Of a stretch of 38,958 nt of DNA, positions 28,232-37,689 are shown piece after piece (within the stretch, counting starts at the first letter, position 1; every line of letters starts with the position of its first letter). The stretch spans positions 1-38,958 of IMG/VR virus record IMGVR_UViG_3300023184_000274; one strand, 5' to 3'. This DNA is from a virus. The notes beneath the pieces were generated by a model, which was given only the letters and a program-made list of their open reading frames with translations, searched no databases and had not been told where the DNA came from. The position numbers and the translations under genes were made by a program.

Positions 28232-28567
28232 TTAATAACCTGCCTGTTCAATTAGAGTGAACCATAATGCTACAGGAAATGTAGCGTACCATTCCCCAAC
28301 ATTTGTTGTTCCTTTTTTCTTGTGTATCACTACACCTGTTTCTGCTTTATCGTTCTGTATTTCTACTTCTAGTTCTTTGAGCCATTTGGACAACTCCATA
28401 CGTTCACAGTTCTTTACCTCAATAACCACATTGCCCATGCCAGCAATGTCGCCCCTGTCAGCAGAACCGTTGAGGCTTCTACGTTCAACGTGTTTCCTAC
28501 CTTTCGATTGTAGCCAGTTGACTACTGCTGTTTCTGCAGCAGTGCCTTTCTGTTTTGCTTTACTCAT
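28232..28567 (-). CDS. PD-(D/E)XK nuclease, Holliday-junction-resolvase-like
   Basis: The 111-residue protein shows a small archaeal-resolvase-like pattern: KGTAAETAVVNWLQSKG (7-23, Glu12), RRSLNGSADRGDI (29-41, Asp40) and VVIEVKNCE (47-55, Glu50 and Lys52). These are the metal and catalytic residues of the PD-(D/E)XK fold. It likely resolves branched DNA before packaging or in recombination. It overlaps the methyltransferase gene by 8 bases and has a GAGGA ribosome site. Confidence 0.82.
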   Translation of the reverse strand: MSKAKQKGTAAETAVVNWLQSKGRKHVERRSLNGSADRGDIAGMGNVVIEVKNCERMELSKWLKELEVEIQNDKAETGVVIHKKKGTTNVGEWYATFPVALWFTLIEQAGY

Positions 28568-29087
28568 TTATATCCTCAAGTTCTCGTATAACTATTTGCT
28601 TTGGTAAAAAATTCCAGCAATAGTAACTACTAGAAAAAGTAATTTTATTATTAGCCCTTCCGTCTGGGCTATTGAACTTCATACGCTTATCAAACATAAG
28701 AAGTTGCAATTCTTTTTCCTTAAATAGTTTCTTTGGTGCTGAATCATTTAGCCAAGTGTTAGACATAATCAAAGCAAATGGTTTATTGAAAGATAATGCT
28801 CGTTCAAAGTATGCCCTTTTATTGGTAAACGGTGGATTAGATACTATCATATCCCATTCGAATTCAGGTTCAAAGTTAAGGAAATCTTGACCAATAGAAA
28901 TGTGGCTATAGATTACCTTGTTTGTTTTTGAAATCTGTTTTACGAATTCACTTTCTTCGGTATCAAAAGGACACCAGACAATTTTATCTTTAGGAATAAA
29001 TTCTAGAATTGGCTTTACACCATTTGCTGGTGTATAGCATTCATCATTATTTCCCTTTGGATAAAGAATGTCTTTACTTTTACTCAT
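28560..29087 (-). CDS. N6-adenine DNA methyltransferase-like protein
   Basis: The catalytic motif SNPPF (residues 83-87) is that of N6-adenine methyltransferases. The expected cofactor motif is altered to CPFDTEESEF (39-48), as in small phage Dam-like enzymes. At 175 residues it lacks a separate target-recognition domain, so specificity may be low. It could protect phage DNA from host restriction. RNA methylation is a possible alternative. It has a stop-start overlap with a very small upstream frame. Confidence 0.75.
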   Translation of the reverse strand: MSKSKDILYPKGNNDECYTPANGVKPILEFIPKDKIVWCPFDTEESEFVKQISKTNKVIYSHISIGQDFLNFEPEFEWDMIVSNPPFTNKRAYFERALSFNKPFALIMSNTWLNDSAPKKLFKEKELQLLMFDKRMKFNSPDGRANNKITFSSSYYCWNFLPKQIVIRELEDINE

Positions 29088-31466: not shown

Positions 31467-31484
31467 GGTATACTATAGTATACC
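31467..31484. promoter_or_regulatory. 18-bp perfect palindrome, putative operator/promoter
   Basis: GGTATACTATAGTATACC abuts the stop codon of the gene to its right and stands about 150 bases upstream of the nuclease operon. It contains TATACT on the plus strand and TATACT on the minus strand. It is one member of the palindrome family at 33720, 35856, 37353, 37533, 37671 and 38556. Confidence 0.7.
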
Positions 31485-31805
31485 CTATCTGGTATCAAAA
31501 AGAGTCGGCTCATCCGACTCAAACATTTTAGAAGGAGCATGAACCTTAAGCAACATACACTTGTCACTGCTATCAATCCTTCTAATACTACCAGCCTCAG
31601 CATCTTTCAATGCTAAGTTCTCGGACTCATAAGGTCCATAAATAAAATTGACGCCAGCATGACGGACAGCAAGAACATACAACTCCCTGTCCCTACGCAT
31701 GCTATCAATCATCTTCCAGATTTCGGTAGCGAGGCTATCCACATCATTATGCTCACGACTAAGACATTCAACTAGAGCCTCCAACTCCTTCTTCCGTGTC
31801 CTCAT
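31485..31805 (-). CDS. Unknown small protein (106 aa)
   Basis: The product starts MRTRKKELEALVECLSREHN, a charged helix, and then has a beta-rich part with VNFIYGPYESENLALKDAEA. A GGAGGAG site lies 4 bases before the ATG, inside the previous gene, which it overlaps by 38 bases. No family is recognised. It is the last gene of its unit, ending against the 31467 palindrome. Confidence 0.65.
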   Translation of the reverse strand: MRTRKKELEALVECLSREHNDVDSLATEIWKMIDSMRRDRELYVLAVRHAGVNFIYGPYESENLALKDAEAGSIRRIDSSDKCMLLKVHAPSKMFESDEPTLFDTR

Positions 31806-32028
31806 CCCACTCCTCCTTAACTAGGTTCTTGTAGATACCCATAACGAACTCGCTGTCATACTCCTCACTCCTGCCATACTTCCAAAGGTTAGATGGTGAA
31901 ATCCACTCACCACTAACATCATCATAAGCAACACCACCTAACCTGAAGGCAGACTGATGGTCAATAGAATACCTAATGACCCCATCTTTATCTACTTCAC
32001 CAACAACAACAGCATAATGTTTAATCAT
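31768..32028 (-). CDS. Unknown acidic protein (86 aa)
   Basis: The product starts MIKHYAVVVGEVDKDGVIRY and ends in an acidic tail (EEWDEDTEEGVGG). The start has an AGGAG site 7 bases upstream. It overlaps both neighbours. I do not recognise it; small acidic proteins in phage early regions are sometimes inhibitors of host proteins, which is only a general possibility. Confidence 0.65.
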   Translation of the reverse strand: MIKHYAVVVGEVDKDGVIRYSIDHQSAFRLGGVAYDDVSGEWISPSNLWKYGRSEEYDSEFVMGIYKNLVKEEWDEDTEEGVGGSS

Positions 32029-32182
32029 AATCTACTCCTAACTCAGCGAACAAATCGCTGTTAACCTCATCAGAGATGTCAATTTCAGCCACCTCACCGA
32101 ACAATTCCTTAATCCTATCTAAGGCTTCTATCTTACTATCAGCCTCAACTCGTAAAGTTAATGATACACTGTATACATCCAA
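32021..32182 (-). CDS. Small ferredoxin-like-fold protein with TTG start (53 aa)
   Basis: A TTG start at 32182 has an ideal AAGGAGG site 6 bases upstream, and the frame fills the gap between the neighbours, ending in an 8-base overlap with the next ATG. The product (starts MDVYSVSLTLRVEADSKIEA, then LDRIKELFGEVAEI) alternates strand, helix and strand and is acidic. The function is unknown. Confidence 0.62.
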   Translation of the reverse strand: MDVYSVSLTLRVEADSKIEALDRIKELFGEVAEIDISDEVNSDLFAELGVDYD

Positions 32183-32183
32183 C

Positions 32184-32390
32184 CTATACCTCCTTGTTCC
32201 ATTCGGCTAACACATCATCAGCCTTATCTGCTTGTAGAGCCAACCATTCATAATAGCATGTCACTACTACAAAACGCTTGACGCTTTCATTCGCCACGCC
32301 GTTCCACCAATCAATAGCATCTTTGATAAAGTTTGGTGACATAGATTGTATCTCCTTGATACGCTCATAGTCGTCCTCATTCCAGTCCAT
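32184..32390 (-). CDS. Unknown small acidic protein (68 aa)
   Basis: The product starts MDWNEDDYERIKEIQSMSPN and is Trp-rich, acidic and helical. Two ATGs compete; the second, at 32390, stands 6 bases after AGGAGG, while the first abuts it, so I chose the second. It overlaps the WhiB gene by 14 bases, in one unit with it. Confidence 0.65.
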   Translation of the reverse strand: MDWNEDDYERIKEIQSMSPNFIKDAIDWWNGVANESVKRFVVVTCYYEWLALQADKADDVLAEWNKEV

Positions 32391-32850
32391 CGGCATCCTC
32401 CTCTACATTTAGTGAAGCAAAAATCTTAGCCAACGCACGAGCATCAGCATCAGAGAACTGATAGAACTTACTATCACTCAACTTGATACCCAACTTTTTG
32501 CGTAGGCGTTTACGGTCACCAGGATTAGTACCACCCCAGAAACCAAACTCCTCATTGAGTAGGGCATGACCGAAACACCTTGCAACGAAAGGACAATCGT
32601 GACACACATTAATTAGTGTGGCATCTAACCTAGAGTAAGTAGGGTACGGCAAGCGTATCTGACGCATGGTAGAAGGACGCTCACCACCCTCTACATACCA
32701 TGGCTCACTAGTTTCATCAGCCTCATAATAGAAAGCCTCAAGACCTACCTGAGCACAGGTCTGTGTACCGTCATAGTCTGGCAAACCAACAACATCCTCA
32801 AGGTCAATCGTGACCCAGTGATAGATAGGATGCTGTACAACCCTACTCAT
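32377..32850 (-). CDS. whiB: WhiB-family iron-sulphur transcription factor
   Basis: Four cysteines in the WhiB order, Cys32, Cys83, Cys86 and Cys92 (NVCHDCPFVARC), hold the 4Fe-4S cluster. The turn GFWGG (103-107) and the basic helix DRKRLRKKL (112-120) complete the family signature. WhiB proteins occur only in Actinobacteria and their phages and act by binding the main sigma factor. The 157-residue length includes an aromatic insert between Cys32 and Cys83. The AAAGGA ribosome site lies within the repeated element at 32853-32868. Confidence 0.93.
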   Translation of the reverse strand: MSRVVQHPIYHWVTIDLEDVVGLPDYDGTQTCAQVGLEAFYYEADETSEPWYVEGGERPSTMRQIRLPYPTYSRLDATLINVCHDCPFVARCFGHALLNEEFGFWGGTNPGDRKRLRKKLGIKLSDSKFYQFSDADARALAKIFASLNVEEDADGLE

Positions 32851-33070
32851 TGCTATCCTTTAGTATAGTGATTGTTGGATTCCAAGCACGCAAATCAGTA
32901 TAGTGTACCTGTCCTGATTTTTCGCGACGCTCAAAGTTAGGTAAGTCTTCTTCAAAAATCTCACCATCAAACAATTGTTCGTATAACTTTCTTGCTTCAT
33001 CCAAGTTCTCGGCATCAAACAAAATGTTACCGTGACTTTCTTCTATGTAATAGATACGGAACTTAGCCAT
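32843..33070 (-). CDS. Unknown small acidic protein (75 aa)
   Basis: The product starts MAKFRIYYIEESHGNILFDA, followed by a helix with DEARKLYEQLF and an acidic part. It ends in TITILKDSNE, which is coded by the repeated element. The ATG at 33070 has a GGAGG site 8 bases upstream and is preferred to one at 33103. It overlaps both neighbours by 8 bases. Confidence 0.68.
   Translation of the reverse strand: MAKFRIYYIEESHGNILFDAENLDEARKLYEQLFDGEIFEEDLPNFERREKSGQVHYTDLRAWNPTITILKDSNE
32853..32868 (-). repeat. TATACTAAAGGATA element before whiB
   Basis: On the minus strand this reads CTATACTAAAGGATAG. It codes Ile-Leu-Lys-Asp at the end of the upstream gene and carries the AAAGGA ribosome site of whiB. 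Other copies are at 35344, 36550 and 36856. Confidence 0.8.
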
Positions 33071-33398
33071 TACTACCACCTCCATAGTTCTCATCAGCAG
33101 CACGCTGCTCTAACTGTATCTCTGCCAAACTTTCGGCATCACCCTCACGGATGTCCGGTCCATCATCAATCTCCCCCACCTCATCTGGTGCAGTGCCATA
33201 GATGATGTCACCATTCTCATCAAGGAACATAATCGCATCAAGTGATTGCGGTATGTCCACGCCAAGCAAACTCTTAACCACACCAATTAACTGTGGCAAA
33301 GTAGGCTCAACCTCCTTAAAGAACTGTTGCTTAACCTGTGCCACATCATAGTTAATGACGAGCATTGTTACTACTTTCTCTGGTAATTTGTTAGTCAT
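33063..33398 (-). CDS. Unknown acidic protein (111 aa)
   Basis: The product starts MTNKLPEKVVTMLVINYDVA; residues 15-50 are helical and the last 40 residues are acidic (EIDDGPDIREGDAESLAEI) with a Gly-rich end. An AGGAGG site lies 4 bases before the ATG. No family is recognised. Confidence 0.66.
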   Translation of the reverse strand: MTNKLPEKVVTMLVINYDVAQVKQQFFKEVEPTLPQLIGVVKSLLGVDIPQSLDAIMFLDENGDIIYGTAPDEVGEIDDGPDIREGDAESLAEIQLEQRAADENYGGGSNG

Positions 33399-33406
33399 GT
33401 TTCCTC

Positions 33407-33697
33407 CTAGTTGGGTGGTAGTTGGTCGAATGCTTTACTGCATTCTTCTTCTAGACTTCGTGTTATTCTGTGCAGTATCGAAGCGTTAACAGAGAATGCA
33501 ATCTTGCCATCGATAACTACATTAGCATTGTATCCTGACATTCTGTTAATGTAAGAAACACTACTGTTCCATGAGTCACGCTCAGGAACGATACGCTCGC
33601 TCTCGTTCTCGATAGCCGAAAGCACAACACGAACATCATGCTTGCGAGCCTTCGATAACTTTAGGAACTTATACTCGGTCAAAAATAATCTAGCCAT
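33407..33697 (-). CDS. Unknown small protein (96 aa)
   Basis: The product starts MARLFLTEYKFLKLSKARKH and has an alpha-beta-alpha look with an ANVVIDGKIAFSVNASI strand pair. It is the first gene of its unit: an AAGGAG site precedes the ATG and the palindrome 33720-33735 lies just upstream. I do not recognise it. Confidence 0.66.
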   Translation of the reverse strand: MARLFLTEYKFLKLSKARKHDVRVVLSAIENESERIVPERDSWNSSVSYINRMSGYNANVVIDGKIAFSVNASILHRITRSLEEECSKAFDQLPPN

Positions 33698-33719
33698 GTT
33701 ATTCTCCTTATCTGTTAGG

Positions 33720-33735
33720 GTATACTATAGTATAC
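33720..33735. promoter_or_regulatory. 16-bp palindrome, putative operator/promoter
   Basis: GTATACTATAGTATAC lies 22 bases upstream of the 33697 start and 2 bases from the stop of the amidotransferase gene. It shares its core with 31467-31484. The setting is the same in both cases: directly after one unit and before the next. Confidence 0.7.
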
Positions 33736-33736
33736 T

Positions 33737-34612
33737 TTATTGTAGGTATTCGTTGATGTTAGCAGGAAGGTTCTTGCGTGCAACCTCTGGAGTGTAGCAC
33801 ATGCAATCAGTGAAGTGTTCTACACAGTCAAGACAAGTGTTGCACACATCACAGATACCAGCAGTCAAGTCGTCAATCGTCAAGTTCTTTAGACATGTAA
33901 GACAATGTATTTCTTCTGAAACATCTGACAGTTTAACATACTCATCATTAGGGTCATTCCACCAGTTACCATTACCGACAGTAGTACCAGACCATGCTTG
34001 CTCGTCCCATGCATTAGGCACATAGCCACTAGCAGTGTAGCCCTTGTATGGCGTATAAGAATACTTGTAAGTGGAGTTAGACCACCAGATGTCGCCATCC
34101 CAATCACCCATGTGTTCATTGAGAATGTACACAGAGTCACGCAACTCTGGTGCATTAGTAAGGATAGCAACCTTACTAGCACCAATGAAGTTCTCAAGGT
34201 TTTGGAAACCAGACTTGGTATCTAACTGCTCAAGACCAACAGAACCAAGAATGTCCTCAGCAAAGATACGAGTATCAGACCTATCGTCACCCTTGCGTGG
34301 CGTGATAGGCATGATGCCATTGTGGGCTAGCACAGTATCGTAACGACCATCAACGCGGAACGGATGATTGTTCTCAAGCGTAGTAGTGCCATGCGTAGTG
34401 TAGCGTGCATGGAACATACCGACAGGGTTCTTGCTCTTAGACATCTCATCTAAGAAACGCTCAATCAAACGCTCGTGCTTCATGCTACGACCAGTGACGA
34501 TACGGTCACCATGATTGACAGCGAAACCAAAACCGTCAGGGTTGTTCTCGCTAGCATTGAATAAGAAATCGCGATTAGGCATCTCGCCTAAAGTAACCAT
34601 TAGTAGACACAT
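33737..34612 (-). CDS. Class II glutamine amidotransferase-like enzyme with cysteine-rich tail
   Basis: Starting at 34612 (GGAG site, 6-base spacing) the protein begins Met-Cys, so removal of Met exposes Cys2 as the N-terminal nucleophile. Other family marks are NPDGFGF (24-30), FHARYTTHG (67-75), NNHPF (81-85), LAHNG (95-99) and RSDTRIFAE (111-119). Such domains release ammonia from glutamine. The last third holds eight cysteines (237, 240, 254, 257, 260, 263, 270, 272), probably two zinc sites. It starts one base after the stop of the amidoligase-like gene, suggesting that it feeds ammonia, or transfers an amide, in the same pathway. The product and target are unknown. Confidence 0.85.
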   Translation of the reverse strand: MCLLMVTLGEMPNRDFLFNASENNPDGFGFAVNHGDRIVTGRSMKHERLIERFLDEMSKSKNPVGMFHARYTTHGTTTLENNHPFRVDGRYDTVLAHNGIMPITPRKGDDRSDTRIFAEDILGSVGLEQLDTKSGFQNLENFIGASKVAILTNAPELRDSVYILNEHMGDWDGDIWWSNSTYKYSYTPYKGYTASGYVPNAWDEQAWSGTTVGNGNWWNDPNDEYVKLSDVSEEIHCLTCLKNLTIDDLTAGICDVCNTCLDCVEHFTDCMCYTPEVARKNLPANINEYLQ

Positions 34613-34613
34613 G

Positions 34614-35831
34614 TTATTCTCCAATCTGTCCAGTAGTCTGGAACTCTGTTATGTATTCATTTAGTGTTGTGTATGTATCGCTATGAGTGGATACCCATTT
34701 AGCGAATTGTTCCCAATCGAAAGACTTACCAGTAATGACATCTTTAGGAGTCATGAACTCTGTGTATTTTACACAAGCATCCACTAACTCCATAGACATC
34801 ATCAGTCTACGGCGATTGAGAGAACCGTTAAAGATACGCACCTCTAGGGTCGGTGTGTTCTGCACATTAACGGCAGAGTACCTATCGGTACTGTATTGAC
34901 GGCGTATACGCCGACCAATGTTCTTGAGATTACCCCTATCGAAGGATGCCCAACGAGAACCACTACGACCAGCAAGTGCCTCAAAGAAGGTCTGATTGCG
35001 AGTAATAAGGTTGATGAAGTAGCCCTGATGTGACTCGCTACGGAAACCGTCACGCGACACATGAATGTGCAGACCGGTAGTATCTGGACTCCACGACTCA
35101 AACCCACTACTCTCCAAGTCCTCAAGGACACTAAACGGGAAGTGTTCCTTGACCCAACTAAGGGTCATGGGGTGAGTGACAATCTCGAAACCATGGTTGA
35201 TAGAGCCATCACTCTTGAGATAGAACAGTTCATCATGACTATTGAATAAGTCACAGCCTGTCTTGATACTGCCAGAGATGCACTCAACCTCAATCTCCAG
35301 ACCGAGATAAGCAATCTGGCGATAGTGACGAGCAATGAACCTGCTATCCTTTAGTATAACGGGAGCATTATTGAACTCGTCAAGCGTGTGATAGAAGATA
35401 GGGGTAGGGCGATAGTCATAGTTCATGATGCGGTGGTCGGTACAGTTATGGTAATCATCATCTTCACGAGAATAATGGTCACAACTATCACACCATTCGT
35501 AATACATGTCTATGCAAGAAGAGCAAACTAGACGGTCATGACGGTCACGAGAACAATCATCACGGTCAGACCAATCATCACACTCATAACACATCACGAA
35601 ATAGTCACGAGTACAACGATTACAATGCATACCATTGCCATTATCAGCATGACCATAGCCACTGTTTATGTTAAAGTTACCTTCACAGTGTGGACACACA
35701 CCATGACAACTACTGCAAACTCTGCCAGAGTTACCAGTGTAACCAAGTTCATCGTCACCAACATGTTCGTTGTGACAACCTACACAGCCCCAACTATCTG
35801 GAACTGCTTCTTCATTGTTAATGTCGGGCAT
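34614..35831 (-). CDS. Amidoligase-like enzyme with multi-zinc-ribbon N-terminus
   Basis: The first 135 residues hold seven CxxC pairs (Cys16/19, 39/42, 46/49, 70/73, 81/84, 103/106, 114/117), a string of zinc ribbons. From about residue 173 a glutamine-synthetase-fold ligase of the Amidoligase_2 type follows: YLGLEIEVE (175-183), YLKSDGSI (204-211), GFEIVTHPMTL (214-224), GLHIHVSR (253-260) and TLEVRIFNG (328-336). Such enzymes join an amine to a carboxylate with ATP. Paired with the amidotransferase it forms a self-contained cassette. The 405-residue gene has an AGGAGG site and the 35856 palindrome upstream. Substrates might be a host protein, wall peptide or small metabolite. Confidence 0.85.
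   Translation of the reverse strand: MPDINNEEAVPDSWGCVGCHNEHVGDDELGYTGNSGRVCSSCHGVCPHCEGNFNINSGYGHADNGNGMHCNRCTRDYFVMCYECDDWSDRDDCSRDRHDRLVCSSCIDMYYEWCDSCDHYSREDDDYHNCTDHRIMNYDYRPTPIFYHTLDEFNNAPVILKDSRFIARHYRQIAYLGLEIEVECISGSIKTGCDLFNSHDELFYLKSDGSINHGFEIVTHPMTLSWVKEHFPFSVLEDLESSGFESWSPDTTGLHIHVSRDGFRSESHQGYFINLITRNQTFFEALAGRSGSRWASFDRGNLKNIGRRIRRQYSTDRYSAVNVQNTPTLEVRIFNGSLNRRRLMMSMELVDACVKYTEFMTPKDVITGKSFDWEQFAKWVSTHSDTYTTLNEYITEFQTTGQIGE
35344..35359 (-). repeat. TATACTAAAGGATA element inside the amidoligase gene
   Basis: On the minus strand this reads TTATACTAAAGGATAG and codes Val-Ile-Leu-Lys-Asp-Ser at residues 158-163, between zinc ribbons and catalytic domain. No gene starts after it, unlike the other three copies. 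Confidence 0.78.
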
Positions 35832-35855
35832 CTAAACCTCCTAAAGGTTTTGTAA

Positions 35856-35871
35856 CTATACTAAAGTATAG
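35856..35871. promoter_or_regulatory. 16-bp palindrome upstream of the amidoligase cassette
   Basis: CTATACTAAAGTATAG has CTATAC/GTATAG arms and a TAAA spacer. It lies 25 bases before the amidoligase ATG and could overlap its -10 region or be a repressor site. The bases 35841-35850 and 35861-35871 recur with equal spacing at 38541-38571. Confidence 0.72.
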
Positions 35872-35959
35872 TGCTTGTGGATTTTTATTCAGTTGTAATG
35901 CAGAAGACATACCTGTCGTCTGCAACTCTAGTTTAGCACACTTAGATAAGTTGCTCAAC

Positions 35960-36151
35960 TTAGAAAACATTTAACTCAATGATAGAATGAAGATAGAAAC
36001 TATCCATCTCGTTAAGTTCTTTAGCATAGGCAGATGCTTTTTCCTGCGTAGTGAAAATAGCAGAACCAAGTTTCCAATCCCATAGCGTGGAAGGGATAGG
36101 TAGACTCGCATCAGTAAAGATGATAGCCCATACAGTGAATTGTGACTTCAT
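35960..36151 (-). CDS. Unknown small protein (63 aa)
   Basis: The product starts MKSQFTVWAIIFTDASLPIP and contains STLWDWKLGSAIFTTQEKASAYAKE in two short parts, a strand-helix arrangement. The ATG at 36151 stands 7 bases after AAAGGAG; a second ATG at 36157 is too close to that site. It is the last gene of a chain of small coupled genes. The function is unknown. Confidence 0.62.
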   Translation of the reverse strand: MKSQFTVWAIIFTDASLPIPSTLWDWKLGSAIFTTQEKASAYAKELNEMDSFYLHSIIELNVF

Positions 36152-36153
36152 AA

Positions 36154-36306
36154 TCATGCTCCTTTGGTTAGTGTGAAATTTGGATTGCGTTGTTGGAACT
36201 CCCACTTTAATTCGTCATAGATAGGATTATCCATACCGGTATCGTGGAAATTAGGGACAGCATTACCCCTAAAAACCCTTGCTATTGCTGAAAAAATTTG
36301 CTTCAT
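36154..36306 (-). CDS. Small unknown protein (50 aa)
   Basis: The product starts MKQIFSAIARVFRGNAVPNF and ends with a charged part (DELKWEFQQRNPNFTLTKGA). It begins in an ATGA overlap with the preceding stop and has a GGAG site 7 bases upstream. The first 14 residues form an amphipathic, possibly membrane-touching helix. No family is known to me. Confidence 0.58.
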   Translation of the reverse strand: MKQIFSAIARVFRGNAVPNFHDTGMDNPIYDELKWEFQQRNPNFTLTKGA

Positions 36307-36416
36307 AGTAGTTCTCCAATCTTAACGATAATAATAGCCAATAGATGTAGACCTAGTAACGCCCCTACCCCTAACGATAGGGACGCTACTATTAGACCAC
36401 GGTTAGTGAGTTTCAT
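36303..36416 (-). CDS. Small membrane protein (37 aa)
   Basis: After MKLTNRG comes a long hydrophobic helix (LIVASLSLGVGALLGLHLLA, then IIIV) and a short charged end. An AGGAGG site lies 6 bases before the ATG, and both ends overlap neighbours. It would be a single-span inner-membrane protein of unknown role. Confidence 0.58.
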   Translation of the reverse strand: MKLTNRGLIVASLSLGVGALLGLHLLAIIIVKIGELL

Positions 36417-36523
36417 TAGTTTCCTCCTGAGTTAATGTATGCAATTTGCAAAGCAAACATGCCAAAGAACCAAACCGTTATAGCACCCAATAAGAGTGCA
36501 AACTTGATGTCATCTTTATTCAT
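36416..36523 (-). CDS. Small membrane protein (35 aa)
   Basis: The product starts MNKDDIKFALLLGAITVWFF and spans the membrane once before a short polar tail. It overlaps the upstream gene by 8 bases and the downstream membrane gene in TAATG. Two small membrane proteins side by side may act as a pair. Confidence 0.57.
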   Translation of the reverse strand: MNKDDIKFALLLGAITVWFFGMFALQIAYINSGGN

Positions 36524-36692
36524 TATCATCACCACCTTCAACATCAGTGCTATCCTTTAGTATAGCGTCAACATGGATACGAACATTACGCTTTTGTGAT
36601 GCACGCTTATCGCGAGAGCGTACACTCTCACGCTTAACAATGTAAGTAGGCGTATCCGCATACTTACTCCAAACATTAGTTGATTTGCTCAT
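36516..36692 (-). CDS. Small basic-to-acidic protein (58 aa)
   Basis: The product starts MSKSTNVWSKYADTPTYIVK, has a basic middle (RESVRSRDKRASQKRNVR) and an acidic end after the repeated element (AILKDS). It begins in a TAATG overlap and has an AAGGAG site about 7 bases upstream. The basic middle could bind nucleic acid. Confidence 0.6.
   Translation of the reverse strand: MSKSTNVWSKYADTPTYIVKRESVRSRDKRASQKRNVRIHVDAILKDSTDVEGGDDNE
36550..36565 (-). repeat. TATACTAAAGGATA element in the 36516-36692 gene
   Basis: On the minus strand it reads CTATACTAAAGGATAG, codes Ile-Leu-Lys-Asp-Ser near the C-terminus of its gene, and stands 27 bases before the next ATG (36523). Confidence 0.78.
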
Positions 36693-36850
36693 TACTTATC
36701 TCCTTCTTTAATGATTGACCAAATTGTAGCATGAAGCGAAGTACAAAAATACAACGCACCACTAGGTGATTGCTCAGTAAGCAACTCAAACTCATTAGAC
36801 ATGCTGAGTTCAGTATCACACTCATCATAACTGCATACAGGTTTAGACAT
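36692..36850 (-). CDS. Small cysteine-containing protein (52 aa)
   Basis: The product starts MSKPVCSYDECDTELSMSNE, with Cys6, Cys11 and Cys36 as possible metal ligands. An AAAGGA site 8 bases upstream of the ATG is supplied by the repeated element at 36856. It overlaps its neighbours at both ends. No family is recognised. Confidence 0.6.
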   Translation of the reverse strand: MSKPVCSYDECDTELSMSNEFELLTEQSPSGALYFCTSLHATIWSIIKEGDK

Positions 36851-37109
36851 TGCCGTTATCCTTTAGTATAGCCTGAACGGTTAAGCGTTCCTTGATTTCA
36901 TCACGCCAAGCAGTAATAGTTTCATCATCTGGCATCTCGCCAAACTCTTCCACAATACCATCAACCTTGATGCCAACCAAATAATCAAGACGCTTGTCTA
37001 AATCGTAAGATACGGACAATTTGCCAAACTCCTGACGGAATTCGCCACGCTTGGCTAAAGATTTATACGGAGTAGAAACTTGCACTACCCAAAAAGCATT
37101 ATCTGCCAT
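36843..37109 (-). CDS. Unknown small protein (88 aa)
   Basis: The product starts MADNAFWVVQVSTPYKSLAK and ends in a helix with RDEIKERLTVQAILKDN, the last part coded by the repeated element. It lies 2 bases after the previous stop. It looks like an alpha/beta protein; I do not recognise it. Confidence 0.64.
   Translation of the reverse strand: MADNAFWVVQVSTPYKSLAKRGEFRQEFGKLSVSYDLDKRLDYLVGIKVDGIVEEFGEMPDDETITAWRDEIKERLTVQAILKDNGNV
36856..36871 (-). repeat. TATACTAAAGGATA element with ribosome site for the next gene
   Basis: On the minus strand it reads CTATACTAAAGGATAA, codes Ala-Ile-Leu-Lys-Asp-Asn at the end of its gene and gives AAAGGA 8 bases before the ATG at 36850. Confidence 0.8.
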
Positions 37110-37111
37110 GA

Positions 37112-37336
37112 TTACAGCCCCAATCCTTTTAAGTCGGAAACGAATTGGTTATAGTGCTGAATACAGCCCTTGCTTATTCCTGCCAAAACAATTTCGTAGA
37201 ATGGCATCTTAAACCACGCTTCTGTATGTTCTGCTAAAAGCAAAAACAGTTCTTGGTTTAACTCATGTTGAGAGATTAAACCTTTCGTATAATTCTCAAC
37301 TATCTTTGCAGATAGTTCACTTAATGACTTACTCAT
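37112..37336 (-). CDS. Unknown helical protein (74 aa)
   Basis: The product starts MSKSLSELSAKIVENYTKGL and is almost fully helical with one Cys. It is the first gene of its unit: an AAAGG site lies 7 bases before the ATG and the palindrome 37353-37368 is 16 bases upstream. The function is unknown. Confidence 0.65.
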   Translation of the reverse strand: MSKSLSELSAKIVENYTKGLISQHELNQELFLLLAEHTEAWFKMPFYEIVLAGISKGCIQHYNQFVSDLKGLGL

Positions 37337-37352
37337 TTCTTAACCTTTCCGA

Positions 37353-37368
37353 CTATACTAAAGTATAG
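37353..37368. promoter_or_regulatory. 16-bp palindrome before the 37336 gene
   Basis: CTATACTAAAGTATAG, identical to 35856-35871. Its closeness to the ATG (16 bases) means it overlaps the 5' leader or core promoter of the unit. Confidence 0.72.
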
Positions 37369-37532
37369 CCTAAGCAACGAACCGACTAGCAGACTATCTG
37401 AAATGTCCCCCATTGCCTACGGCAATTCTACCACAGATACAGAAGTTACTCTACTTAGAAAACCCTTGCAAATAAAGGGCATTTAACGCATTTAGGTACA
37501 GACAGGCACAGATAGATACAAAACAATTTACG

Positions 37533-37548
37533 CTATACTTTAGTATAG
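37533..37548. promoter_or_regulatory. 16-bp palindrome in the early regulatory gap
   Basis: CTATACTTTAGTATAG is the same element in the opposite orientation, flanked by ACAGATAGATACA repeats on both sides. Confidence 0.7.
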
Positions 37549-37612
37549 CAACATGCAATGACAGATAGATACAGATACACACAGAAACATTTACGAACAG
37601 ATACAGAAAAAG

Positions 37613-37645
37613 TTTGTGGCGGGTGGGGGGTGGGGTTTGTGGCGG
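37613..37645 (+). other. G-rich tract, possible quadruplex
   Basis: Runs of three to six G separated by single T bases (GGCGGGTGGGGGGTGGGG in the core) could fold as a G-quadruplex on the plus strand. Few tracts of this kind occur in this AT-rich genome. Confidence 0.45.
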
Positions 37646-37670
37646 AACGCCCACCGCGTAGGTGCTGGCA

Positions 37671-37686
37671 CTATACTTTAGTATAG
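37671..37686. promoter_or_regulatory. 16-bp palindrome beside the early terminator
   Basis: CTATACTTTAGTATAG lies just beyond the terminator of the 192-residue gene, 3 bases from its U-run. It could start the next unit after the terminator. Confidence 0.7.
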
Positions 37687-37689
37687 GGC

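Follow-up and report, generated by a model that had tools for sequence, protein, structure and literature searches.

Paired genes for an amidoligase and a class II glutamine amidotransferase (GATase) are already known from the Marvin-group mycobacteriophages and from OM43 phages. In the Marvin group (Marvinvirus), e.g., gp105/gp106 of Marvin and gp108/gp109 of Tesla, the same two families occur in the same order and on the same strand as at the locus studied here. The OM43 phages MEP401 and MEP402 encode an amidoligase (PF12224) and a GATase (PF13522), and the corresponding report, with reference to Iyer 2009 and to the Marvin paper, relays the suggestion that the pair either changes the cell wall against superinfection or makes metabolites (PMC10580990). 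Another arrangement is the 'peptidoglycan modification cassette' of phiEco32, LUZ24, and RIO-1, in which an amidoligase adjoins a class II GATase (gp18-gp19 in LUZ24 and gp84-gp83 in phiEco32). For RIO1-like podoviruses, this was described as a seven-gene cassette common to phiEco32 and LUZ24, with the same cell-wall hypothesis (PMC5498523). According to a study on S. aureus, MurT and GatD are co-transcribed and responsible for peptidoglycan amidation (PMC3267633). This two-gene amidation system provides a model for glutamine-fed two-protein amidation. MurT is Mur-ligase-like, and GatD is a class I-type amidotransferase.

The window, i.e., the whole stretch of DNA that was analyzed, is a virus record of 38,958 bases with a G+C content of approximately 42%. 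Its plus strand encodes a terminase, a capsid protein, and an M23 peptidase, and the right arm, which is oriented on the minus strand, includes genes for a DnaB-like ATPase and a WhiB homolog. The terminase is closest to those of two unannotated Caudovirales records and of Streptomyces phages; judged from these relatives and the WhiB homolog, the host of the phage is probably actinobacterial. Rfam and tRNA scans of the whole window yielded no matches. The right arm also encodes the pair, with the following features:

34614..35831, minus strand: Amidoligase_2/GS-like carboxylate-amine ligase, 405 aa (Pfam, AlphaFold)
35837..35842, minus strand: ribosome-binding site of the ligase, AGGAGG (read from the sequence)
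35481..35786, minus strand: predicted N-terminal zinc-ribbon array of the ligase, residues 16-117, seven CxxC motifs (sequence)
34632..35315, minus strand: GS/GCS-like catalytic core of the ligase, approximately residues 173-400 (alignment of 213 pairs)
33737..34612, minus strand: class II (Ntn) glutamine amidotransferase, 291 aa, nucleophile Cys2 (Pfam, PDB profile, fold)
33797..33904, minus strand: C-terminal eight-Cys tail of the GATase, residues 237-272 (alignments)

The two proteins of the Marvin-group pair are approximately 33% and 34% identical to those of the window, and Tesla likewise combines a ligase carrying CxxC motifs with an eight-Cys GATase tail. However, the Marvin-group genes are separated by an 81-base gap, the C-terminus of their ligase is longer, and five CxxC motifs were counted in the Tesla ligase compared to seven in the window ligase. 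MEP401 and MEP402 resemble the window pair in gene order, overlapping genes, and a Cys2 GATase but differ in having a longer ligase with few CxxC motifs and a GATase devoid of the four-CxxC tail. The phiEco32/LUZ24 cassette differs in its ligase, which lacks CxxC motifs, in its longer GATase, and in the further ligases and the cyclotransferase encoded alongside. Neither LUZ24 gp18 nor phiEco32 gp84 was found by the profile of the window ligase family (A3), and no COOH-NH2 ligase, ATP-grasp protein, or gamma-glutamyl cyclotransferase was recognized among the subset of window ORFs scanned. The window phage carries a predicted zinc-bearing version of the pair with no recognized larger cassette. 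According to the preliminary description of this locus, no function is known for a phage pair of this kind; this holds insofar as the published functions are hypotheses and the literature searched contained no experimental function, but the pair itself has been annotated and discussed in print.

An amidoligase with an N-terminal cysteine array

Both reading frames lie where they had been placed before, with the ligase running from 35831 to 34614 and the ATG of the GATase following its stop by one base, at 34612. The earlier assignment of the first gene product to the Amidoligase_2-like GS-fold enzymes was borne out by Pfam (PF12224; 24.9 bits at a cut-off of 22), and all 65 members of the ligase alignment match this family. 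The ligase model, which like that of the GATase is an AlphaFold single-chain model, has a mean pLDDT of 87.7. Its best match in the PDB is YbdK, followed by glutamine synthetases, with PafA and Dop lower down and a fold match to glutamate-cysteine ligase that is weaker than that to YbdK; since the TM-scores are low (approximately 0.3), these matches support a common fold but not close kinship. CTCF and casein kinase, which appeared as PDB sequence matches of the ligase profile, were weak and have been discarded.

The core is characterized by the pattern G177-x-E179-x-E181, D208-x-S210, H255-x-H257, R260, N322, and E330-x-R332, which was followed through 213 aligned ligase-GATase pairs (113 from phages and 100 from genomes). 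G177, E179, E181, H255, H257, N322, E330, and R332 are identical in all 213 pairs, D208 and S210 are kept in 212, and R260 is kept in 210. The identical residues E179, E181, and E330 correspond to the ATP/metal-binding Glu of a GS/GCS fold. Loss of catalytic Glu or His residues had been named beforehand as the observation that would speak against the assignment; in the ligase, these residues are intact throughout the aligned pairs.

The N-terminal part contains the seven CxxC motifs noted earlier (CVGC, CSSC, CPHC, CNRC, CYEC, CSSC, and CDSC), whose Cys residues are fully or almost fully conserved across an alignment of 65 sequences. This array is modeled as confidently folded short strands (pLDDT approximately 90) and is predicted to bind zinc. 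The number of CxxC motifs in the N-terminal half of the ligase is mostly seven or eight in phages and mostly ten in genomes. In both the ligase and the GATase, the highest mean hydrophobicity over 19 residues stays below 1.0, too low for a membrane helix.

A probable GlmS-like glutaminase

The listed start of the GATase is a TTG at 34624, 12 bases upstream of the ATG at 34612; since Cys at position 2 requires the latter, we use it as the start. The motifs NPDGFGF and LAHNG, Cys2, and the eight-Cys tail are all present, in agreement with the preliminary description. Its class II assignment is supported by a narrow pass for GATase_4 (23.6 bits, cut-off 23) and by profile matches to GlmS and PurF in the PDB, the alignment reaching up to HNG, but not by GATase_6 (20.3 bits, under the cut-off of 27). 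The model has a mean pLDDT of 79.7 with a low-confidence stretch at approximately residues 188-229, and its fold matches are, in order, GlmS, PurF, and EgtC. Judged from profiles and model, the protein is assigned to the class II amidotransferases, where the glutaminase domain of GlmS is closest.

Cys2 is present in all 213 aligned pairs, and R70, T73, G75, N81, H83, H97, N98, G99, and D113 are kept nearly everywhere among them. Cys2, Arg70, Thr73, Gly75, His83, Asn98, Gly99, and Asp113 are the residues that a glutaminase is expected to have. His74 is less constant, with another residue in about one in four chromosomal GATases. The eight Cys residues of the tail are invariant in a 69-sequence phage alignment and present in approximately 95% of the 213 aligned pairs; the tail, like the ligase array, is predicted to bind zinc.

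Linkage of the two genes in viral and bacterial loci

Single-protein scans of viral contigs gave almost no matches, and alignment-based searches were needed. One search with the ligase and one with the GATase each matched approximately 600 stretches in IMG/VR, from which the best 80 were evaluated; the contigs of the two sets overlap, and the sets do not sample the most distant relatives. Within these limits, the GATase gene lies directly downstream of the ligase gene in 76 of the 80 best ligase loci, which are all of the readable ones (76/76), the remaining 4 ending 0-82 bases from the ligase. Conversely, a ligase precedes the GATase in 75 of the 80 best GATase loci (75/75 readable), and the other 5 begin at the GATase or approximately 150 bases or less from it. 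It had been proposed that the two genes never co-occurring elsewhere would count against the pair; these loci show the opposite. Order and strand are constant, and the genes mostly overlap or lie a few bases apart (gaps mostly from -32 to +37 bases). This near-absolute linkage supports the view that ligase and GATase form one putative functional unit, inherited almost inseparably.

Among distant relatives, a ligase followed by a GATase was also found in an Acinetobacter phage and in two human-gut records, the one of the latter that was counted (L006) having a GATase without a zinc tail. In a C. difficile phage, the ligase adjoins an RlaP-like gene instead of a GATase. In a Bifidobacterium phage, the gene preceding the GATase (L242:2598-3440) resembles the C-terminal part of an amidoligase (TIELRTF), and the pair may be present there with a mis-annotated or broken ligase.

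Near-inseparable inheritance of the pair extends to bacterial chromosomes. One genome scan revealed 71 loci, nearly all of them actinobacterial, mostly from Nocardia but also from Actinokineospora, Amycolatopsis, Kutzneria, and others. Two or three divergent ligase-GATase pairs are arranged in tandem at 38 of the genome loci (within L087-L157), mostly in Nocardia; in the first 15 of these 38, the ligases of tandem copies are approximately 47-58% and the GATases 51-66% identical. Ligase and GATase distances are correlated with r = 0.91 over 214 pairs, the highest value from 500 permutations being 0.04, and at tandem loci the nearest ligase and the nearest GATase belong to one pair in 98% of the comparisons (2836 of 2886). 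At the level of sequence, the distance correlation and the cognate tandem partners show co-inheritance as a unit, which by itself does not amount to contact.

Some chromosomal pairs are located near genes for Prim-Pol, SSB, DprA, TrwC relaxase, integrases, conjugation coupling proteins, and DUF4192. These replication, integrase, and conjugation genes suggest that the chromosomal pair resides in part on mobile elements, the neighbors surveyed being a sample that includes many proteins without a known family. A family of 138-aa proteins that match no Pfam entry is typically encoded downstream of the pair and was found at 42 genome loci (e.g., L120:9872-10285). Three Nocardia loci (L101, L134, and L135) contain, near paired copies, an extra ligase without a detected GATase, followed in L101 by a DUF3085 protein. 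At three Pseudonocardia loci (L136, L146, and L157), the ligase match lies within one frame spanning almost the whole locus of 16.6-16.7 kb, possibly a giant multidomain protein; these loci were excluded.

Possible functions of the pair

A unit maintained so strictly in different phages and on actinobacterial chromosomes must have a selectable role. Since a GS-fold ligase is tied to a GlmS-like glutaminase, a glutamine-fed amide synthetase is the simplest reading, and we lean towards the view that the two proteins are subunits of such an enzyme acting on a macromolecule, rather a protein than a free metabolite. From the families, folds, residue conservation, and near-obligate pairing, we infer a complex in which the GATase would hydrolyze glutamine by means of Cys2 and hand over the ammonia, and the ligase would activate a carboxylate with ATP and form the amide. 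In both proteins, the Cys arrays, which are probably zinc ribbons, would hold the partners together and/or dock on the macromolecular substrate, and the phage, as well as the related chromosomal loci, would benefit during takeover or conflict. Sequence, fold, and linkage support this putative chemistry, to which the target adds a further step of interpretation. The active-site pattern of the ligase, conserved in 213 pairs, its GS/YbdK fold, and the best profile and fold matches of the GATase, GlmS and PurF, argue for an amide synthetase. Both GlmS and PurF channel ammonia. On the other side stand the presence of EgtC, a gamma-glutamyl hydrolase, among the GATase fold matches, the chromosomal ligases without a detected GATase, and the variability of His74, which affects roughly one in four chromosomal GATases, and the correlation of r = 0.91 would also be expected from simple co-inheritance. 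More speculatively, and in this specific form rather doubtfully, the pair could be a zinc-ribbon-guided protein-modifying system common to phages and actinobacterial mobile elements, in which the glutamine-fed ligase amidates or tags a specific host protein and tandem paralogous pairs are aimed at different targets.

The main rival is the published one, according to which the pair acts on peptidoglycan precursors or peptide side chains, by amidation or some other change, and would exclude superinfecting phages or tune lysis. It was put forward for the phiEco32/LUZ24/RIO-1 cassette (PMC5498523) and repeated for the OM43 phages (PMC10580990), MurT/GatD is a precedent (PMC3267633), and the window phage encodes an M23 peptidase. 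However, the ligase of the cassette has no CxxC array and escapes the profile of the window ligase family, neighboring genes of the cassette were not recognized among the window ORFs scanned, and the pair is often found in tandem at actinobacterial loci, some of them near replication or conjugation genes, where superinfection exclusion is less obvious. Zinc ribbons would be compatible with a cell-wall role, because MurT carries one. Overall, we regard such a role as a serious but minority possibility, which can be tested directly in M. smegmatis, whose cultivable Marvin-group phages have the same pair. It appears unlikely that the ligase joins an amino acid such as glutamate to an amine and that the Ntn protein later hydrolyzes the gamma-glutamyl bond, as do EgtA and EgtC in ergothioneine synthesis. 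The fold that the ligase has in common with YbdK and, more weakly, glutamate-cysteine ligase would fit, as would EgtC among the GATase fold matches, and Pfam GATase_4 also covers EgtC-like proteins; but the best sequence and fold matches of the GATase are GlmS and PurF, not EgtC, and the glutamine-binding residues Thr73, His83, and Asp113 are conserved. We consider it very improbable that the amide is formed on a modified phage DNA base or on host tRNA or rRNA, with zinc ribbons binding the nucleic acid. The Cys arrays on both enzymes are consistent with this, as is the occurrence of the pair in phages and partly near Prim-Pol, SSB, TrwC, and DprA, where DNA could gain from modification, whereas no base-modifying partner gene was recognized near the pair, an EcoRI-methylase-like protein (28560-29087) remaining under the Pfam cut-off. 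Known anti-phage defense proteins (PADLOC) gave no match at E <= 1.

Palindromes in the right arm

The preliminary description had taken the pair for a self-contained transcription unit flanked by palindromes. The two palindromes exist, at 33720-33735 and 35855-35872, but they are two of approximately 8 copies of a 16-18-base palindrome (ACTATACTWWAGTATAGT-like) that extend through the right arm from 31468 to 37687, compared to 0.1-0.3 copies expected by chance. Because the family is dispersed, the argument for a separate unit falls, and the reading of the pair as a transcription unit bounded by these palindromes is rejected.

35855..35872: palindrome ACTATACTAAAGTATAGT, upstream of the ligase, member of the dispersed family
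33720..33735: palindrome GTATACTATAGTATAC, between the GATase and the next gene, member of the dispersed family, with an exact copy at 31468
31468, 32852, 33720, 35855, 36549, 37352, 37532, and 37670: sites of the palindrome family
32377-32850: WhiB homolog (PF02467, 31.7 bits), with a palindrome at the gene start

Several copies sit directly upstream of minus-strand genes, and the family resembles an operator or promoter element of a phage-specific kind. Three related phages (L008, L010, and L011) have their own, different palindromes, with three to six copies each within the few kilobases examined (AGTATCTTACAAGATACT six times, TATTCTTGTCCAAGAATA four times, and a AAGTATCCTTTGGGATACC-like sequence three times), one of them just upstream of the ligase; these are possibly fast-diverging operators with phage-specific regulators.
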